DNA of 63,574 nt from Lachnospiraceae bacterium (GTDB taxonomy: Bacteria; Bacillota; Clostridia; Lachnospirales; Lachnospiraceae): contig JAFUFL010000002.1 of NCBI GenBank assembly GCA_017469935.1, forward strand, positions 1 to 63,574. The letters run 5' to 3'. Below are positions 1 through 5,590 of the stretch, one piece after another (positions within the stretch are counted from its first letter, which is position 1; the number at the start of each line of letters is the position of its first letter). The position numbers and the translations under genes are program-made. A model generated the notes under the pieces. The model was not told the origin of the DNA and did not search any database. It saw only the letters and a program-made list of their open reading frames with translations.

Positions 1-153
1 AAGAACGGTCCTGAGAATCTGCAGCAGATCAATATAACGGATAATGAAAAGAGACTCTTAATGCAGATCCCTTACAATGGCACAGCCAATTTCGAGGCCG
101 CAGAAGGAGTACAGGTTCAGTTCAGGTGGACTACACTGAGAAAAAGAGGCTGA
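1..153 (+). CDS. C-terminal fragment of an unidentified protein, cut by the window edge
   Basis: Frame 1 is open from the first base to a TGA at 151-153, giving the last 50 residues of a protein whose start lies outside the window. The end reads ...NFEAAEGVQVQFRW followed by a short basic tail. That block resembles the C-terminus of the next protein (IETGDGSVLRFMW before its last residues), so the two may share a small C-terminal beta-rich domain; this is inference from a short match. Only 53 bases separate it from the next start, so the two genes are probably co-transcribed. Family unknown. Confidence 0.6.
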   Translation, partial: KNGPENLQQINITDNEKRLLMQIPYNGTANFEAAEGVQVQFRWTTLRKRG

Positions 154-206
154 TCGGAGGCTGAATCAGTAGTGGCCCGATGACAACATTGACAGGAGGC
201 GTTATT

Positions 207-1937
207 TTGAAGCGTTTAAGAGGAAGATTAGCAGCCGCTGTCACAGCTGTTATACTGGCGGCGTGTGTGGGCATGTCATCTTATGCGGCAGAAGGCGGAG
301 AAGAGCGGGACCCCATCCTGTACACGGTTACGACGGCTGCCGAGGGAAAAGAGTATCCGGAACTGACCCCTGCACCTGAACAGAAGGAGAACTCAGAGGG
401 CAAGGAGCCGGAAGCAGCAGAAAAGAAAGAGGAGCCCGCGAATACGGGCTCTTCCGAGAACGTCGAAGTAAAGATAGAAAAAACAGCCGGGCGAAAGAAA
501 CCTCTGGCCGGGGAGAACCCTGCCGGTGAGAAAATAGAGGAGAATTCTGACGACGCGCAGGACGAAGACACTTCTGAAGACGGCGAAGACGCTTCCGAAG
601 ACGGCGAAGACACTTCCGAAGACGGCGAAGACACTTCCGAAGACGGCGAAGACGCTTCCGAAGGCAGCGAAGACACTTCCGAAGACGGCGAAGACGCTTC
701 CGAAGGCAGCGAAGACAAAGAAGATTCGAAACCGGAGGAGAAGAAGGAAGCAGAGCCGGATTCCGCCGATCAGGCAGAAAATGCGGAGCCGGCAGATCAG
801 CCGGAGAATCAGATCCTTGTGATCGCAATTCCCGACGATGAGGCTTATAACTTGTTCGATACGATCAAGCTGACAGTTCAGTTTCAGGTGGAGGAGAATC
901 CGACAAGGACAGCGGACATTCACTTGGGAGAGCTCAATTCCGTAAACACGGATAAGGGAATGTACTATGTGGTTGAGTATAAAATCGGCGAGATCACAGA
1001 GGAACAGATTGCAAGCGTAAAAGCGGAAGGAATCAGCCTCGCGAGCAAGGGTACCGGTGAGGCCGAGCAGGAAAACGGTGAAGGAACTACAGCTGGGGCC
1101 GATAAAGGAACCACTGCGGGTGCCGATAAAGGAGCCACTGCGGGCGCCGATAAAGGAGCCACCGCGGGCGCCGATAAAGGAACCACCGCAGGCGCCGAAG
1201 AAGGAGCCACCGCGGGCGCCGATAAAGGAACCACCGCGGAGGCCGATAAAGGAACCACCGCGGAGGCCGATAAAGGTACTACTGCGGGATCCGATGGCGG
1301 ACAAGGCGGAGTCAGCACTGTAACAGAGACAGAAAACGCTGCGGAAGAACTTACCGTTGTGAAAGGTTCTGTTAAAGAGATCCCGGCCGGGGAGACGACC
1401 ACCGCTGACGCGGCAGCTACGGCTTCGACGGCAGAAGAAACGGTTGTCGAGGAAGAAGAGAGCAAGAAAGGCGGAATCCCCTGGATTCCGATCGCGATCG
1501 GAGGCGTGGCCTTGGCAGGAATCGGAGCGGCGGCAGCAGTATTTCTTCTTCGAAATAAAAAACAGCAGCCGGAAAAGAAAGCAGCCGCTGAGCCGGCCAT
1601 GGTGTTCAGCACCTGCTCGGAACTGAGGGTTGTTGAAGAGAGGAGAGACGGCAGCCGCACATACTACCGCTTTGATCTGAACGGGCGGCAGACGGCCAGA
1701 CTTGCGGATCTTCAGAACAGAAAAGACGGCAGGAGACTGGAAATGGTCAGCGGCGCAAATCTGGAAGATGTATATGTGCAGGCTTATGGCAAAGAGCTCA
1801 CATTCTACAGACAGGCAGGAGGCCGCGAAGAGAATATGTTTGTCCTCGGGCAGACGCGCTCCTCTGCAGCGATCGAGACCGGAGACGGAAGTGTTCTGCG
1901 CTTCATGTGGATTCCCGGAATTAAAGAGGATCCGTGA
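207..1937 (+). CDS. Secreted, membrane-anchored low-complexity protein with two tandem-repeat tracts
   Basis: I chose the TTG start at 207 because GACAGGAGG lies just upstream at 191-199; the in-frame ATG at 180 has no ribosome site. The protein is 576 aa. Residues 1-30 are a signal peptide (basic start, then a hydrophobic core); LAAC at residues 17-20 could be a lipobox, or cleavage may follow SYA. An acidic region holds about seven TSEDGED/ASEDGED heptads (residues ~120-170), and a second tract holds nine TTAGADKG-type octads (~292-363). A membrane helix lies at ~425-446 and a folded ~120-aa domain follows it, predicted to be cytoplasmic if the signal peptide is cleaved. The overall design suits a stalked surface or signalling protein. 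It converges on the VirD4-like operon. Function unknown. Confidence 0.75.
   Translation: MKRLRGRLAAAVTAVILAACVGMSSYAAEGGEERDPILYTVTTAAEGKEYPELTPAPEQKENSEGKEPEAAEKKEEPANTGSSENVEVKIEKTAGRKKPLAGENPAGEKIEENSDDAQDEDTSEDGEDASEDGEDTSEDGEDTSEDGEDASEGSEDTSEDGEDASEGSEDKEDSKPEEKKEAEPDSADQAENAEPADQPENQILVIAIPDDEAYNLFDTIKLTVQFQVEENPTRTADIHLGELNSVNTDKGMYYVVEYKIGEITEEQIASVKAEGISLASKGTGEAEQENGEGTTAGADKGTTAGADKGATAGADKGATAGADKGTTAGAEEGATAGADKGTTAEADKGTTAEADKGTTAGSDGGQGGVSTVTETENAAEELTVVKGSVKEIPAGETTTADAAATASTAEETVVEEEESKKGGIPWIPIAIGGVALAGIGAAAAVFLLRNKKQQPEKKAAAEPAMVFSTCSELRVVEERRDGSRTYYRFDLNGRQTARLADLQNRKDGRRLEMVSGANLEDVYVQAYGKELTFYRQAGGREENMFVLGQTRSSAAIETGDGSVLRFMWIPGIKEDP
569..717 (+). repeat. 21-bp tandem repeat encoding SEDGED(A/T) heptads
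   Basis: About seven near-identical 21-bp units of the type CTTCCGAAGACGGCGAAGA follow each other inside the surface protein gene. The unit is a multiple of three, so gain or loss of copies would keep the frame and change only the length of the acidic stalk. Confidence 0.85.
1081..1300 (+). repeat. 24-bp tandem repeat encoding TTAGADKG octads
   Basis: Nine 24-bp units (ACCGCGGGCGCCGATAAAGG-like) encode (T/A)TAGADKG with AEADKG and AGAEEG variants. As with the upstream heptads, copy-number change would be in frame. The array is likely length-variable between strains. Confidence 0.85.
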
Positions 1938-1977
1938 TTCGGAAGGACAGTTGATTGAGTCAATAATACACACGTAT

Positions 1978-2027
1978 GGGGGTGTCGCACTAAGAATTAT
2001 TCTTAGGGCGACACCCCCGTTTTTTTT
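1978..2027 (+). terminator. Rho-independent terminator after the surface protein
   Basis: GGGGGTGTCGC (1978-1988) pairs with GCGACACCCCC (2008-2018), and an inner CTAAGAAT/ATTCTTAG stem extends it almost without interruption. Eight T residues follow at 2020-2027. It sits in the gap between convergent genes; the minus side has no T run. Confidence 0.93.
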
Positions 2028-2032
2028 CTAAA

Positions 2033-3238
2033 TCATAAACGACACGGTTTCTTCTTCTGCTTTTGCAGAAATACCCGTAATTGCAATATGCCCTTAACGT
2101 CAATGGAAGGGCTCTTGCTCTTCAAATTCTGCTCGACCTCTTCAGAATCAAGACCCGCCGTTAGTTCTGACAGCATTTCATCCGCCAAATGAACAGACTT
2201 TCGAATCATTCCGACCCGCAGGTATAATTCGATCAGATGGTACCGATCGCGATTGGATTGAAAATCAGGAGGACTGTCCTGCTCCCTGCTCTCATTTACA
2301 AGTTCTTTCTGGAAGACAATAGCGCGGGAATACTTTCTGTTCTTCTCAAACAGGGCGATTAAGTCACGCTTGGCCTGAAGGGTGGAAGGAGCATTCGGGC
2401 CTGCCATGGATGTCTTCAGCTCCAGCAGCCGGTAGTGGTGGAGGATGGATCTGTTCAAGAGACTGTCAGATGCTGTCAGCTTCCCGTAGGAGTATTTGGA
2501 CAATGCGCTGCAGAGTTTTTCATATGCCTCAATTGTTTTTACGCTTTTGGCACCATAGGACTCTTTGGCCAGGTCCAGCGCTTCTTCGCGAATCCGGATC
2601 TCTTCTTCCGGCGTACCTGCATAAGCTAAGTTGGCGGCAAGATTAGAAAGGCAGTCAAGAGTTGTATCCGTATCATCGGCGTGATACTTTTTCTGCAGTT
2701 CAAGCGCTCTTTCCGAATATTGCCTGGCTTTGCTGTAGCGGTGGCAGGAGTAAAGGACACAATCGAGGCGCATCAGGTATTGGACGGCTACGGATGCGCT
2801 CTCCCCTTCTTTTTTCAGAACATAATTGCATAATTTTTCAAAATAGAGAATCTCCTGGCTGTAAAGCTCCAGGCTGCGCATCACATAGGCGTATATAAGC
2901 CAGGGAGCGGAGGGATCAAAGTTTTCCTCCGCTGTGAAGCAGTCGGCGATCGCCACGGCTCTTGTAATCAGCGGATAAGCGGATTTGGTCAGCCGTTTAT
3001 CGTTCAGGACATAGGCCACAAAGGCGAGTGCGTCCGGAAGCAGCCTGTTTTTCCAATCCGTGTAATCTTCAAGGCGCGCTTTAAACTCTTCAATCAGGGC
3101 ATCACATTCTTCGTCGCTTGTATGAAGGGCAAAAATATAGTTGGCCAGCTCATATAATGTTCTCGGATGGCGTGCGCCGAATGATTTTTCGGTGTTCTGC
3201 CAGTCGCTGTATGCTTGTTTGACTTGTTCTGCTGACAT
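2033..3238 (-). CDS. TPR-repeat protein, last gene of the VirD4-like operon
   Basis: This 401-aa, all-helical, soluble protein has no signal peptide. Tetratricopeptide-like repeats of the kinesin-light-chain type are visible: FGARHPRTLYELANY near the N-terminus, later YGAKSVKTIEAYEKL and GPNAPSTLQAKRDLIALF, with paired helices between them. A GGAG site lies upstream of the ATG. It starts 12 bases after the VirD4-like gene ends, so the two are translated from one message. TPR proteins usually act as protein-binding adaptors, so a scaffold for the neighbouring ATPase is plausible but is inference. Confidence 0.8.
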   Translation of the reverse strand: MSAEQVKQAYSDWQNTEKSFGARHPRTLYELANYIFALHTSDEECDALIEEFKARLEDYTDWKNRLLPDALAFVAYVLNDKRLTKSAYPLITRAVAIADCFTAEENFDPSAPWLIYAYVMRSLELYSQEILYFEKLCNYVLKKEGESASVAVQYLMRLDCVLYSCHRYSKARQYSERALELQKKYHADDTDTTLDCLSNLAANLAYAGTPEEEIRIREEALDLAKESYGAKSVKTIEAYEKLCSALSKYSYGKLTASDSLLNRSILHHYRLLELKTSMAGPNAPSTLQAKRDLIALFEKNRKYSRAIVFQKELVNESREQDSPPDFQSNRDRYHLIELYLRVGMIRKSVHLADEMLSELTAGLDSEEVEQNLKSKSPSIDVKGILQLRVFLQKQKKKPCRL

Positions 3239-3250
3239 AAGGACTCCTCA

Positions 3251-4720
3251 TTAGTCGACGAAAGGATGCGGGACTTCTCCGAGAAGGATTCTGGTGAGCA
3301 GAGTAATGACAGAGAAGATCCGGTAGTCGTTAGAAGAGTGCTCCTTCATGGGGACCGGCGGATATCCCTTGAAAGCTTCGTACATGTCAATGTCGGCAAG
3401 CTGTGAGATGAAGGGATACTGGCGGGAATGTATGATCAGGGCTTCCCCTTTCTCCTTATTGAAGCGCTGCAGTTCCGAAACAGAGATCAGAGGACGTTTC
3501 TCCCGGTCCGCTGTAACGATTTCCCCGCAGAGGCTGCTGATCTCCTGCAGAAGATCCAATTCCTTGGAAGTCAGAAAGACCCAGTTGTCGCAGTTTCCCT
3601 TGATCGTATCGGCGTCTTCTCCGTAGCGGCCTACCAGCTGGTGCTTGCTCTGCGCGACCAGAAAATAGCGCATATTCCGGCTTCTGGCTGCGCTGATCAT
3701 GGAAGGCATGTCCGGGATCCTGGGAAGGTTGCAGAATTCGTCCAGCACGAAATTGACCCTGAGGGGGAGCATTCCGTTCTCCTCTTTCTGCGCCTCACGG
3801 ATCAGAATCTCATAGGCCTGCTTGATAAAAGTGGTAACAAGGAAATGAAGCGTCGTCTTTTCATCCGGAACGATGATGTAGAGGGCGGTCTTCTCCCTGC
3901 CGATCCGGGTGAGGTCCACCGTGTTGCCGGAGAGCATAGTGGCCAGTTTCCTCTGCGTGTTGAAGACGCGGATCATGCCAAAGAGCGAAATATAAATACT
4001 CTGGCGGGTCTTTTCGGCGCCGGTGAAGACGTTCTTGTAGTTCATGCCGGCGATCGTATATTCACTCATCGGTTCGGAGAGCTCTCTCAGTTTGTCTTCC
4101 AGATCGAGAGAACACAGACGGGAGAGGCTGATGACATTCGCTTCCTCTTCCGAGGCGCATTCCATGAGGAGCATCAGGTTTGCGATCGCGAAGGAGGCGG
4201 CCATTTCCGGCCAGAACACATCCTTTGTGCGCTCAAATTGAGGAGCGGCAAGGGTCTGCACAAAATCATTGAGCATGGAGACAGCTTCTTCCTGCCGGCC
4301 GGAATGATACAGCTTATAAGGGACATACAGCGGGTTCCACAGATCGCCTTTTCCGATATCGCGGAAATTGAGGACGACGGTTTTGTAGCCGTTTGCCTCG
4401 GCCAGTCCCGAGGTTTTTCTGTACAGTTCTCCCTTGGGATCCGTCGTGATAAAGGATTCGCCGGCCTTTATGAACATGCCCAGCATAGGCATGCAGAACA
4501 GGCGCGTTTTTTTGGATCCGGTCGCGCCGAAAATAAGAGAATGCGTGTCACTGCCGTCGACATAGGCTTCTCTGGCGTCTGACATAAGGGGCAGTCCCGC
4601 CGTGGGGTAATGATCGTCGCTGAGTCGGATGAACGTGCTGCTGTCCTGGATCTCACTTGGAGAAGCCCAGCGGGTCTCCTGATTTGTCTTCACATAGCGC
4701 TTATATCTGTAGTTTTCCAA
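3251..4720 (-). CDS. VirD4/TraG-like ATPase without N-terminal membrane helices
   Basis: The 489-aa protein belongs to the type IV coupling-protein family. It has a Walker A region GATGSKKTR at residues ~66-74, the ITTDPKGELY signature that follows the P-loop in VirD4/TraG proteins, Walker B VNFVLDEF near 320, and the family motif ISAARSRNMRYFLVAQS after it. Two points are odd. The P-loop has K in place of the last conserved glycine (GSKKT, not GSGKT). The protein also begins almost directly at the ATPase fold, without the N-terminal transmembrane pair of conjugative coupling proteins. The start is TTG at 4718-4720, eight bases after AGGAGG. No relaxase or VirB4-like gene lies nearby, so conjugation is not supported. 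Confidence 0.85.
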   Translation of the reverse strand: MENYRYKRYVKTNQETRWASPSEIQDSSTFIRLSDDHYPTAGLPLMSDAREAYVDGSDTHSLIFGATGSKKTRLFCMPMLGMFIKAGESFITTDPKGELYRKTSGLAEANGYKTVVLNFRDIGKGDLWNPLYVPYKLYHSGRQEEAVSMLNDFVQTLAAPQFERTKDVFWPEMAASFAIANLMLLMECASEEEANVISLSRLCSLDLEDKLRELSEPMSEYTIAGMNYKNVFTGAEKTRQSIYISLFGMIRVFNTQRKLATMLSGNTVDLTRIGREKTALYIIVPDEKTTLHFLVTTFIKQAYEILIREAQKEENGMLPLRVNFVLDEFCNLPRIPDMPSMISAARSRNMRYFLVAQSKHQLVGRYGEDADTIKGNCDNWVFLTSKELDLLQEISSLCGEIVTADREKRPLISVSELQRFNKEKGEALIIHSRQYPFISQLADIDMYEAFKGYPPVPMKEHSSNDYRIFSVITLLTRILLGEVPHPFVD

Positions 4721-4741
4721 TTTCAGGCCTCCTTCCTGCGA

Positions 4742-5590
4742 TTATGCAAAACCGATTCTCTTTTTGACTTTCTGCAGGGTCCTCTGAATATAGGGGCTGT
4801 CCTTGGAGAATGTCTGCAGATCCGCGGCGGAAAGCGTCATGCCGCTCATGTTTTCTCTTGCGTAGAGTTCGTAAATGATATCGCTTCCGAAGAGGTCCAC
4901 CGCGCCGGCCGAGTCAAAATAGCGATTTCCGCGCAGCATGTCGATGGACTCGGAGAGAAGTGCTCTTGCACTGTCATCGAGAGCGAAACCGTAGTCGCCT
5001 AAAAGATCCTCGATCTCGCTGACGTAAGTAGAGGTAGAAGCTCTGTGCAGCGTGATCCGTTCGATTCGCAGAAACATGGAGAGAATCGATTCCATGGCGT
5101 CTGCCTTGCCTTCATTTTTGGTAGAAACAGAGAGGATGATCAGCCATTTATGGGTATTCTCGGAGAGATAATCCATCAGATCGATAAAGTGGTGCTCCTC
5201 CTGGTGGCCCAGCCAATAGTCGAGTTTGATGTGAACAATGCCCCGGAATTCATTTCTGTAGCCCGCGCAGTCGCTGATTCCGTCAATGAGGCGCTGAAGC
5301 TCCCCAAAGCCCGCTCCCGGCGCGCAGTAATTCATCATAAACTCAAAATAGGGGACGTCGCCGTTAAAATCCATAAGGTTTTTCTGCGTGATCAGGTAGG
5401 AAGACAAGGTATCTATCATCCTTGAGAGCATCGTGTCGCTGTGGGATACTACGAACAGGTCCGGAAGAAGGATCGGCCCATTGACGGGCAGTGTCTTAAG
5501 ATTGGAGGAGAGGATCGCCCATTTGCGGACCAGACGGTCAAGTCCGTGCGCGCCGTCAAAATGGATCAGTTTTTCATAGTAAGGGTTCAT
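4742..5590 (-). CDS. Unidentified protein with a degenerate AAA-ATPase-like layout
   Basis: This 282-aa soluble protein is the first gene of the minus operon, with a strong AAGGAGG site. I recognise no family with certainty. The order of secondary elements resembles CbbX/SpoVK-type AAA proteins: PDLFVVSHSDTMLSRMID sits where a beta-strand/P-loop/helix would be but lacks the glycines and lysine, GIVHIKLDYWLG sits where Walker B would be, and HKWLIILSV sits where a sensor strand would be. If the reading is right, it is an ATPase-dead partner. Only 21 bases separate it from the VirD4-like gene, so a shared complex is likely. Confidence 0.6.
   Translation of the reverse strand: MNPYYEKLIHFDGAHGLDRLVRKWAILSSNLKTLPVNGPILLPDLFVVSHSDTMLSRMIDTLSSYLITQKNLMDFNGDVPYFEFMMNYCAPGAGFGELQRLIDGISDCAGYRNEFRGIVHIKLDYWLGHQEEHHFIDLMDYLSENTHKWLIILSVSTKNEGKADAMESILSMFLRIERITLHRASTSTYVSEIEDLLGDYGFALDDSARALLSESIDMLRGNRYFDSAGAVDLFGSDIIYELYARENMSGMTLSAADLQTFSKDSPYIQRTLQKVKKRIGFA

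Follow-up and report, generated by a model that had tools for sequence, protein, structure and literature searches.

VirD4/TraG motors are the DNA pumps of conjugation and are linked at the superfamily level to HerA motors. Genes of this family are usually read as marks of conjugation, and the NCBI model for the coupling proteins of clostridial integrative conjugative elements (ICEs), conju_CD1115 (NF045973), would label the gene described here a conjugal transfer protein. We analysed a 63,574-nucleotide stretch of DNA (hereafter the window) from a Lachnospiraceae bacterium (assembly GCA_017469935.1, contig JAFUFL010000002.1), near the start of which lies a minus-strand operon of three genes encoding an AAA+-fold protein that we call AAAx, a VirD4/TraG-like ATPase and a TPR protein. 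Its ATPase falls within a discrete clade of chromosomal, anchorless VirD4-derived ATPases that are paired with AAAx, and our verdict is that the operon encodes a non-conjugative VirD4-derived machine rather than being the remnant of an ICE. An earlier reading of the letters alone (the original prediction) had proposed a chromosomal, non-conjugative machine of this kind, perhaps for effector delivery, surface-protein control or defence.

The ATPase gene, which starts at a TTG codon, matches PF02534 (1.5e-38) and TraG-D_C (2.3e-24) in Pfam, and its score against conju_CD1115 passes the NCBIfam cut-off (279 bits against 250). A PDB sequence search returned DotL/IcmO as the sole match (3.2e-7). 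No hydrophobic stretch that could serve as a membrane anchor is present in the 64 residues that precede the P-loop (best 19-residue hydropathy −0.01), in agreement with the claim in the original prediction that the protein begins at its soluble core; the N-terminal hydropathy maximum was 1.2–2.5 in the 11 long VirD4-like proteins scored, and did not exceed 0.85 in the proteins scored from the AAAx-linked group and from a ClpP-linked group described below. The window protein reads GATGSKKTR at the P-loop and VLDEF at Walker B, and the residue preceding the P-loop lysine is itself a lysine in 61 of 63 AAAx-clade VirD4s (mostly G-x-T-G-S-K-K-[ST]-R, the exceptions being L102 and L107), compared with 0 of 31 in the other groups. 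Search scores split into orthologues at 793–905 bits, a next match at 426 and then scores of at most 221. A quick maximum-likelihood tree of 76 proteins, a check that the original prediction had suggested, separates conjugative CD1115-type, ClpP-linked and AAAx-linked VirD4s, though its deepest forks are weak and several of its branches long. The ratio of nonsynonymous to synonymous divergence (dN/dS) of VirD4, at 0.07–0.18, indicates purifying selection.

Searching a genome collection with one genome per species (84,980 species) with VirD4 as the query gave 54 loci, most of them in metagenome-assembled genomes from gut and rumen; they are assigned to Lachnospiraceae, Oscillospiraceae, 'Clostridia' and a few other groups. 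AAAx is the next gene upstream of VirD4, on the same strand and with a gap of −62 to +99, in all 50 loci that have upstream DNA (in L038 and L049 it is cut by the contig end); the remaining four begin at VirD4. This pairing is not circular, because the query was VirD4 alone, without AAAx. It also holds in the distant members L100–L102, L106, L107, L123 and L124, while the 210 bases upstream in L064 are too short to judge. The AAAx sequence has no match in Pfam, NCBIfam, PADLOC or PHROGs, and a profile search of the PDB gave nothing up to E 5. Its structure model is an AAA+ fold, for which Foldseek gave CbbX as the best match, with HslU and ClpX folds also alike. Walker A is lost in the window copy, where it reads SHSDTMLS; GxGK[ST] is kept in 4 of 37 AAAx proteins (L004, L010, L055, L058), and the lysine in eight, including those four. 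Most AAAx proteins, the window copy among them, are without an intact P-loop, leaving VirD4 as the only evident motor of the operon. On its motifs AAAx appears degenerate as an enzyme, and in the window operon the role of motor seems to fall to VirD4.

To place these genes against conjugation genes, clade VirD4s, the relaxase PF03432 and VirB4 (NF045971) were located in the same genomes, comprising 50 locus genomes (the 54 loci minus the four shortest) and 62 genomes of the window's genus; all listed rows were used, with one duplicate assembly (G206 = G610) counted once. Neither PF03432 nor NF045971 was found on the same contig in any of 54 AAAx-clade placements, MobC and MobT relaxases not being among the families searched. 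These placements represent 53 genes, namely the 50 plus G000, G224 and two pieces of one G247 gene. By comparison, 21 of 38 other VirD4-like genes with frames of at least 560 amino acids (aa) had PF03432 and/or VirB4 within 30 kb, as did 5 of 52 shorter non-clade frames. The contigs of the locus genomes were at least 20 kb long in 42 of 50 cases (median 40 kb). The window's own genome has no VirB4 match and a single relaxase, on a different contig, and among 150 tyrosine recombinase matches listed, one (in G625) lies on the contig of a clade gene, at a distance of about 62 kb.

Of the 62 genomes of the window's genus, four carry close orthologues, the window's own among them. At wider ranks, AAAx turned up in 4 of 200 genomes drawn for the family (one match weak), 8 of 392 for the order (three being frames of 656–703 aa that represent another, long AAA protein) and 2 of 398 for the phylum (the second a 668-aa frame), the window's own genome being included each time. 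In the genus that contains G004, and also L034 or a genome nearly identical to it, AAAx is present in 31 of 35 genomes, and in 21 of 23 good ones, with one match each. AAAx is therefore near-core in one genus and scattered elsewhere, a pattern which a resident function fits better than a parasite does, although horizontal spread is still allowed. The original prediction of a chromosomal, non-conjugative machine is upheld by these placements and by this distribution, the nearby relaxase or VirB4 that would have refuted it having failed to appear for PF03432 and NF045971. A leftover coupling protein of an ICE or of an integrative mobilizable element (IME) was rejected as a candidate on the same linkage counts for PF03432, VirB4 and the listed recombinases, and we regard it as a very remote prospect: while the gene passes the cut-off of a conjugative family, and Streptococcus IMEs with their own VirD4 and MobC relaxase are described (PMC5704250), the gene is under purifying selection and near-core in one genus, scored clade members have no anchor, and the only listed integrase on a shared contig is distant.

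A second group of short VirD4s is associated with a protease. A ClpP-like gene adjoins, in either order, 19 of 21 short non-AAAx VirD4 genes examined (20 in fetched regions plus L076, the regions having been picked from search matches, of which only part of the short ones were fetched); the exceptions are L115, which has none, and L128, which lies at a contig end. The short contig-end fragments L077, L078 and L080–L082 have no ClpP within their 2–3 kb. Four members of the AAAx clade (L010, L102, L106, L107) also have ClpP beside AAAx-VirD4, and the Ser and His motifs are kept in all eight ClpP sequences shown. The second acid of Walker B is Asp in 16 of 16 VirD4s of the ClpP group, as well as in L076, which has ClpP, compared with 0 of 64 in the AAAx group and 0 of 13 in the long group; L115, without ClpP, also has this DD. 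In the ClpP group Gly or Ser precedes the P-loop lysine, and those scored have no membrane anchor. The window's own genome carries such a pair on contig C103 (L108:6892-8715). Further chromosomal ClpP-VirD4 pairs were seen in L076, L109–L114, L116–L122, L125 and L127, with three on one G637 contig. Both L112 (4032-11367) and L114 contain a larger repeated set that comprises a DUF2201 metallopeptidase/VWA protein, ClpP, VirD4 and others of 238, 379 and 419 aa that match nothing in Pfam, with ClpP-VirD4 present twice in each stretch. No description of an orphan VirD4 with a ClpP or AAA+ partner was found in the literature covered, which included few subscription papers and no preprints; PMC12419801 has a single mention of VirD4, in the role of a secretion-signal domain.

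Where a third gene is present, its product is often a helical-repeat protein, and its divergence far outpaces that of the AAAx-VirD4 pair. The window protein matches TPR_12 above the Pfam cut-off (1.1e-8) and TPR_10 below it, with no Pfam enzyme domain, and the third gene of the window branch is a TPR gene by Pfam in the window and L099 and by homology in L003 and L014. L005 has TPR just under the Pfam cut-offs, and L006 (Sel1) and L051 (TPR) have weak sub-cut-off matches. In six other loci (L007, L009, L012, L013, L015, L016; cluster c15) the third-gene protein models as 12 helices (pLDDT 91.0); the two of the six that were scanned have no Pfam match, and Foldseek with the model recovered nothing beyond generic helical repeats and chains resembling 14-3-3 or SNAP proteins, of which one fell under E 0.001. 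Between the window and L003, its closest relative, identity is 62.5% for the TPR protein, compared with 93.6% for AAAx, 93.5% for VirD4 and 96.8% for the neighbouring HIT protein. Synonymous divergence (dS) is 0.81 against 0.24, 0.20 and 0.32, and dN/dS 0.30 against 0.11, 0.18 and 0.05. DNA identity declines from some 95% at window base 3450 to some 70% at base 3150 and lower positions. The raised dS suggests that the TPR gene has been exchanged through recombination. Over the 15 pairs among the six c15 loci, mean identity is 33% for the third gene, 78% for VirD4 and 70% for AAAx.

Our preferred reading, to which we give a probability of roughly 0.45, is that the operon encodes a machine in which VirD4 is a motor working in the cytosol, partnered by a pseudo-AAA+ protein and by an exchangeable helical protein for client selection, and which most likely acts on proteins. 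VirD4 would form its usual hexamer in the cytosol, and AAAx would attach to this hexamer without hydrolysing ATP, serving as a ring, clamp or adaptor; a particular protein, chosen as client by the TPR protein, would then be pulled on or remodelled by the machine. A protein would be a likelier client than DNA because the ClpP-linked group, the nearest sister clade outside conjugation, and four AAAx-clade members adjoin an apparently active ClpP, and because the AAAx fold is that of the protein remodellers CbbX, HslU and ClpX; the link to ClpP is the main ground for this preference. Several observations weigh on the other side. VirD4, HerA and FtsK motors mostly move DNA, and the Foldseek matches of AAAx also include RuvB and clamp-loader subunits, which serve DNA. 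The window operon contains no protease or other enzyme, and its VirD4 is without the canonical Walker A glycine before the lysine; the activity of the GSKKT P-loop may be weak or absent. In the VirD4 tree, alongside the weak deep forks, two long-frame proteins, L074 and L079, are placed with the AAAx group through long branches. Furthermore, many rumen loci have no same-strand third gene, and homology between the c15 protein and the window TPR protein was considered and found to be without evidence (hhalign probability 3.6). A wider version of the preferred reading, which we hold to be doubtful, is that the domesticated coupling ATPase represents a new class of cytosolic protein-handling machine, in which one branch would be a ClpX-like motor feeding its own ClpP and the other would have a pseudo-AAA+ ring that replaces or supplements the protease, with exchangeable helical adaptors choosing the client.

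The main rival, itself an unlikely one in our view, is anti-phage defence, whereby a motor-plus-sensor complex would detect a phage trigger through the TPR protein and AAAx-VirD4 would activate an effector encoded nearby in some branches. A Card1-like nuclease gene lies downstream of the pair in L004, L017 and L055 (in L055 with a Pfam E of 6.6e-6, slightly under the cut-off), and a profile built from these three found further matches near the pair in L124 and, within a 1168-aa frame, in L100. The latter two loci also have TIR proteins near the pair (TIR-WD40 in L100, TIR-LRR in L124), and in L123 (10411-12105) a TIR and prokaryotic STING protein is encoded on the strand opposite to the AAAx-VirD4 pair, divergent from it and about 1.3 kb away. 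The fast third gene, the match of VirD4 to PADLOC mad8 (2.3e-7) and the precedent for a motor-effector complex in HerA-DUF4297, as given in PMC11291478, are also consistent with defence. However, L004, L017 and L055 form a single branch of the VirD4 tree, the window operon is without an effector enzyme, and AAAx is near-core and single-copy in one genus. Moreover, no enrichment of defence genes was visible when Pfam families within three genes of the pair were compared with those further away, a comparison that weak enrichment or single relaxases could escape: the scan took in 139 of the 193 near proteins and 121 of the 238 far ones, with 25 of 129 near and 25 of 154 far families displayed, the near proteins coming from L003–L050 only, after the removal of 19 loci with near-identical or very short flanks. 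Most of the near families displayed were housekeeping ones and did not visibly differ in kind from what lay further away. The defence option of the original prediction thus finds neighbours to suit it in a few branches, but not a general association in this partial sample. The downstream stretches in question (L004:4537-10371, L017:11898-16998, L055:11548-14548) also encode a c32 protein, with a weak RyR match in L017 (E 0.08), and, in L004 and L017, a long CbxX-type AAA protein, and it is possible that they constitute a second-messenger conflict module. Elsewhere, a 979-aa TIR-Sel1 protein adjoins a long CbxX-type AAA protein (L105:3898-8823).

That the machine is instead a cytosolic DNA motor, similar to FtsK or HerA, acting on chromosomal or plasmid DNA and assisted by AAAx in the manner of a clamp loader, we consider improbable. 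The role of VirD4/TraG proteins in conjugation and the clamp-loader and RuvB matches of AAAx would suit it, whereas relatives pair with ClpP, and the recurring neighbours include no recognised nuclease, recombinase or DNA-binding family outside the Card1 branch; a single HTH protein was seen, in L017. There is a slimmer chance still that the machine controls the envelope, by acting on adjoining lipoproteins or stalked surface proteins. In 22 Lachnospiraceae loci, L059 among them as a duplicate of L034, AAAx is preceded by a zinc-ribbon, lipoprotein-like gene (cluster c2), and a stalked surface protein gene converges on the window operon; yet c2 was seen only in the rumen Lachnospiraceae branch, where shared gene order alone could account for it, the surface protein has no relative in related loci, and the operon has no membrane part. 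Neither the surface-protein control nor the effector delivery that the original prediction had offered is supported, the latter for want of a membrane component in the operon. The c2 protein itself, e.g., L036:7977-8834 in rumen Lachnospiraceae, has a ClpX-like zinc ribbon (zf-C4_ClpX, E 0.011, below the cut-off).

The layout of the window operon and its surroundings is given in Table 1. The three minus-strand genes are separated by gaps of 21 and 12 bases and converge on the repeat-stalked surface protein gene, just as originally described. A signal peptide and one membrane helix were recognised by eye in the surface protein, the stalk of which consists of two repeat arrays (563-717 and 1081-1295, with 21- and 24-base units). 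The likely terminator of this gene is absent from the output of a consensus scan that permits loops of 3–8 only. While the original prediction spoke of stalked surface proteins in the plural, the frame at 1-153 has only 50 codons and is not identifiable, so that just one such protein is demonstrated; window base 1 is base 1 of contig C35, and no sequence to its left is visible in the window's own genome. A five-gene set that includes the surface protein, as the original prediction envisaged, was rejected: the protein has no BLASTP relative among the frames of related loci, and homology with L003 at the DNA level extends as far as the end of the TPR gene, short of the surface gene. The other neighbours seen in the window branch, such as the HIT protein, are ordinary.

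Table 1. Features at the start of the window (positions in window bases).
Feature	Position	Strand	Basis or remark
Repeat-stalked surface protein, 585 aa; convergent neighbour judged outside the system	180..1937	+	Repeats; no relative in related loci
Likely rho-independent terminator of the surface protein gene	1980..2027	+	Hairpin GGGGGTGTCGC...GCGACACCCCC then T run; direct reading
TPR protein, 401 aa; fast-diverging third gene	2033..3238	-	TPR_12 above cut-off, TPR_10 below
VirD4/TraG-like ATPase without membrane anchor, 489 aa	3251..4720	-	PF02534, PF12696, NF045973; hydropathy; motifs
AAAx, apparently degenerate AAA+ protein (CbbX/ClpX-type fold), 282 aa	4742..5590	-	First operon gene
HIT-domain protein gene, divergent; upstream operon edge, common to L003	5750..6226	+	Cluster c21 adjoins AAAx in window and L003; PF01230 on L003 copy

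If the wider reading is true, a VirD4-family motor would work as an unfoldase or remodeller without a secretion system, and feeding ClpP or remodelling proteins would be a new use of the family. A clade so sharply marked shows that clostridia have retained the motor for another purpose. For annotation, the signs are the lack of an anchor together with GSKKT and an upstream AAAx, or DDF together with an adjoining ClpP.

Compared with the coupling proteins of clostridial ICEs, the AAAx-clade VirD4s have the same ATPase core of PF02534 and TraG-D_C, but differ in the missing N-terminal anchor, GSKKT in place of GSGKT, the AAAx partner and contigs free of PF03432 and VirB4. AAAx resembles CbbX, HslU and ClpX in fold, whereas it matches none of their families by Pfam or PDB profile, and the P-loop of the window copy is lost. 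Among the four window proteins scanned, a likeness to MADS was seen in the weak match of the ATPase core to Mad8, the other three matching no MADS model. In HerA-DUF4297 and similar systems, too, the gene of a motor of related class has a fixed partner next to it, although the partner here is a degenerate AAA+ protein, rather than a nuclease or NADase, and is near-core in a genus. The ClpP-VirD4 pairs share with the AAAx clade a short, anchorless VirD4, of a size class seldom found within 30 kb of a relaxase or VirB4, and are set apart from it by their ClpP partner, the Gly or Ser before the P-loop lysine and the DD of Walker B.

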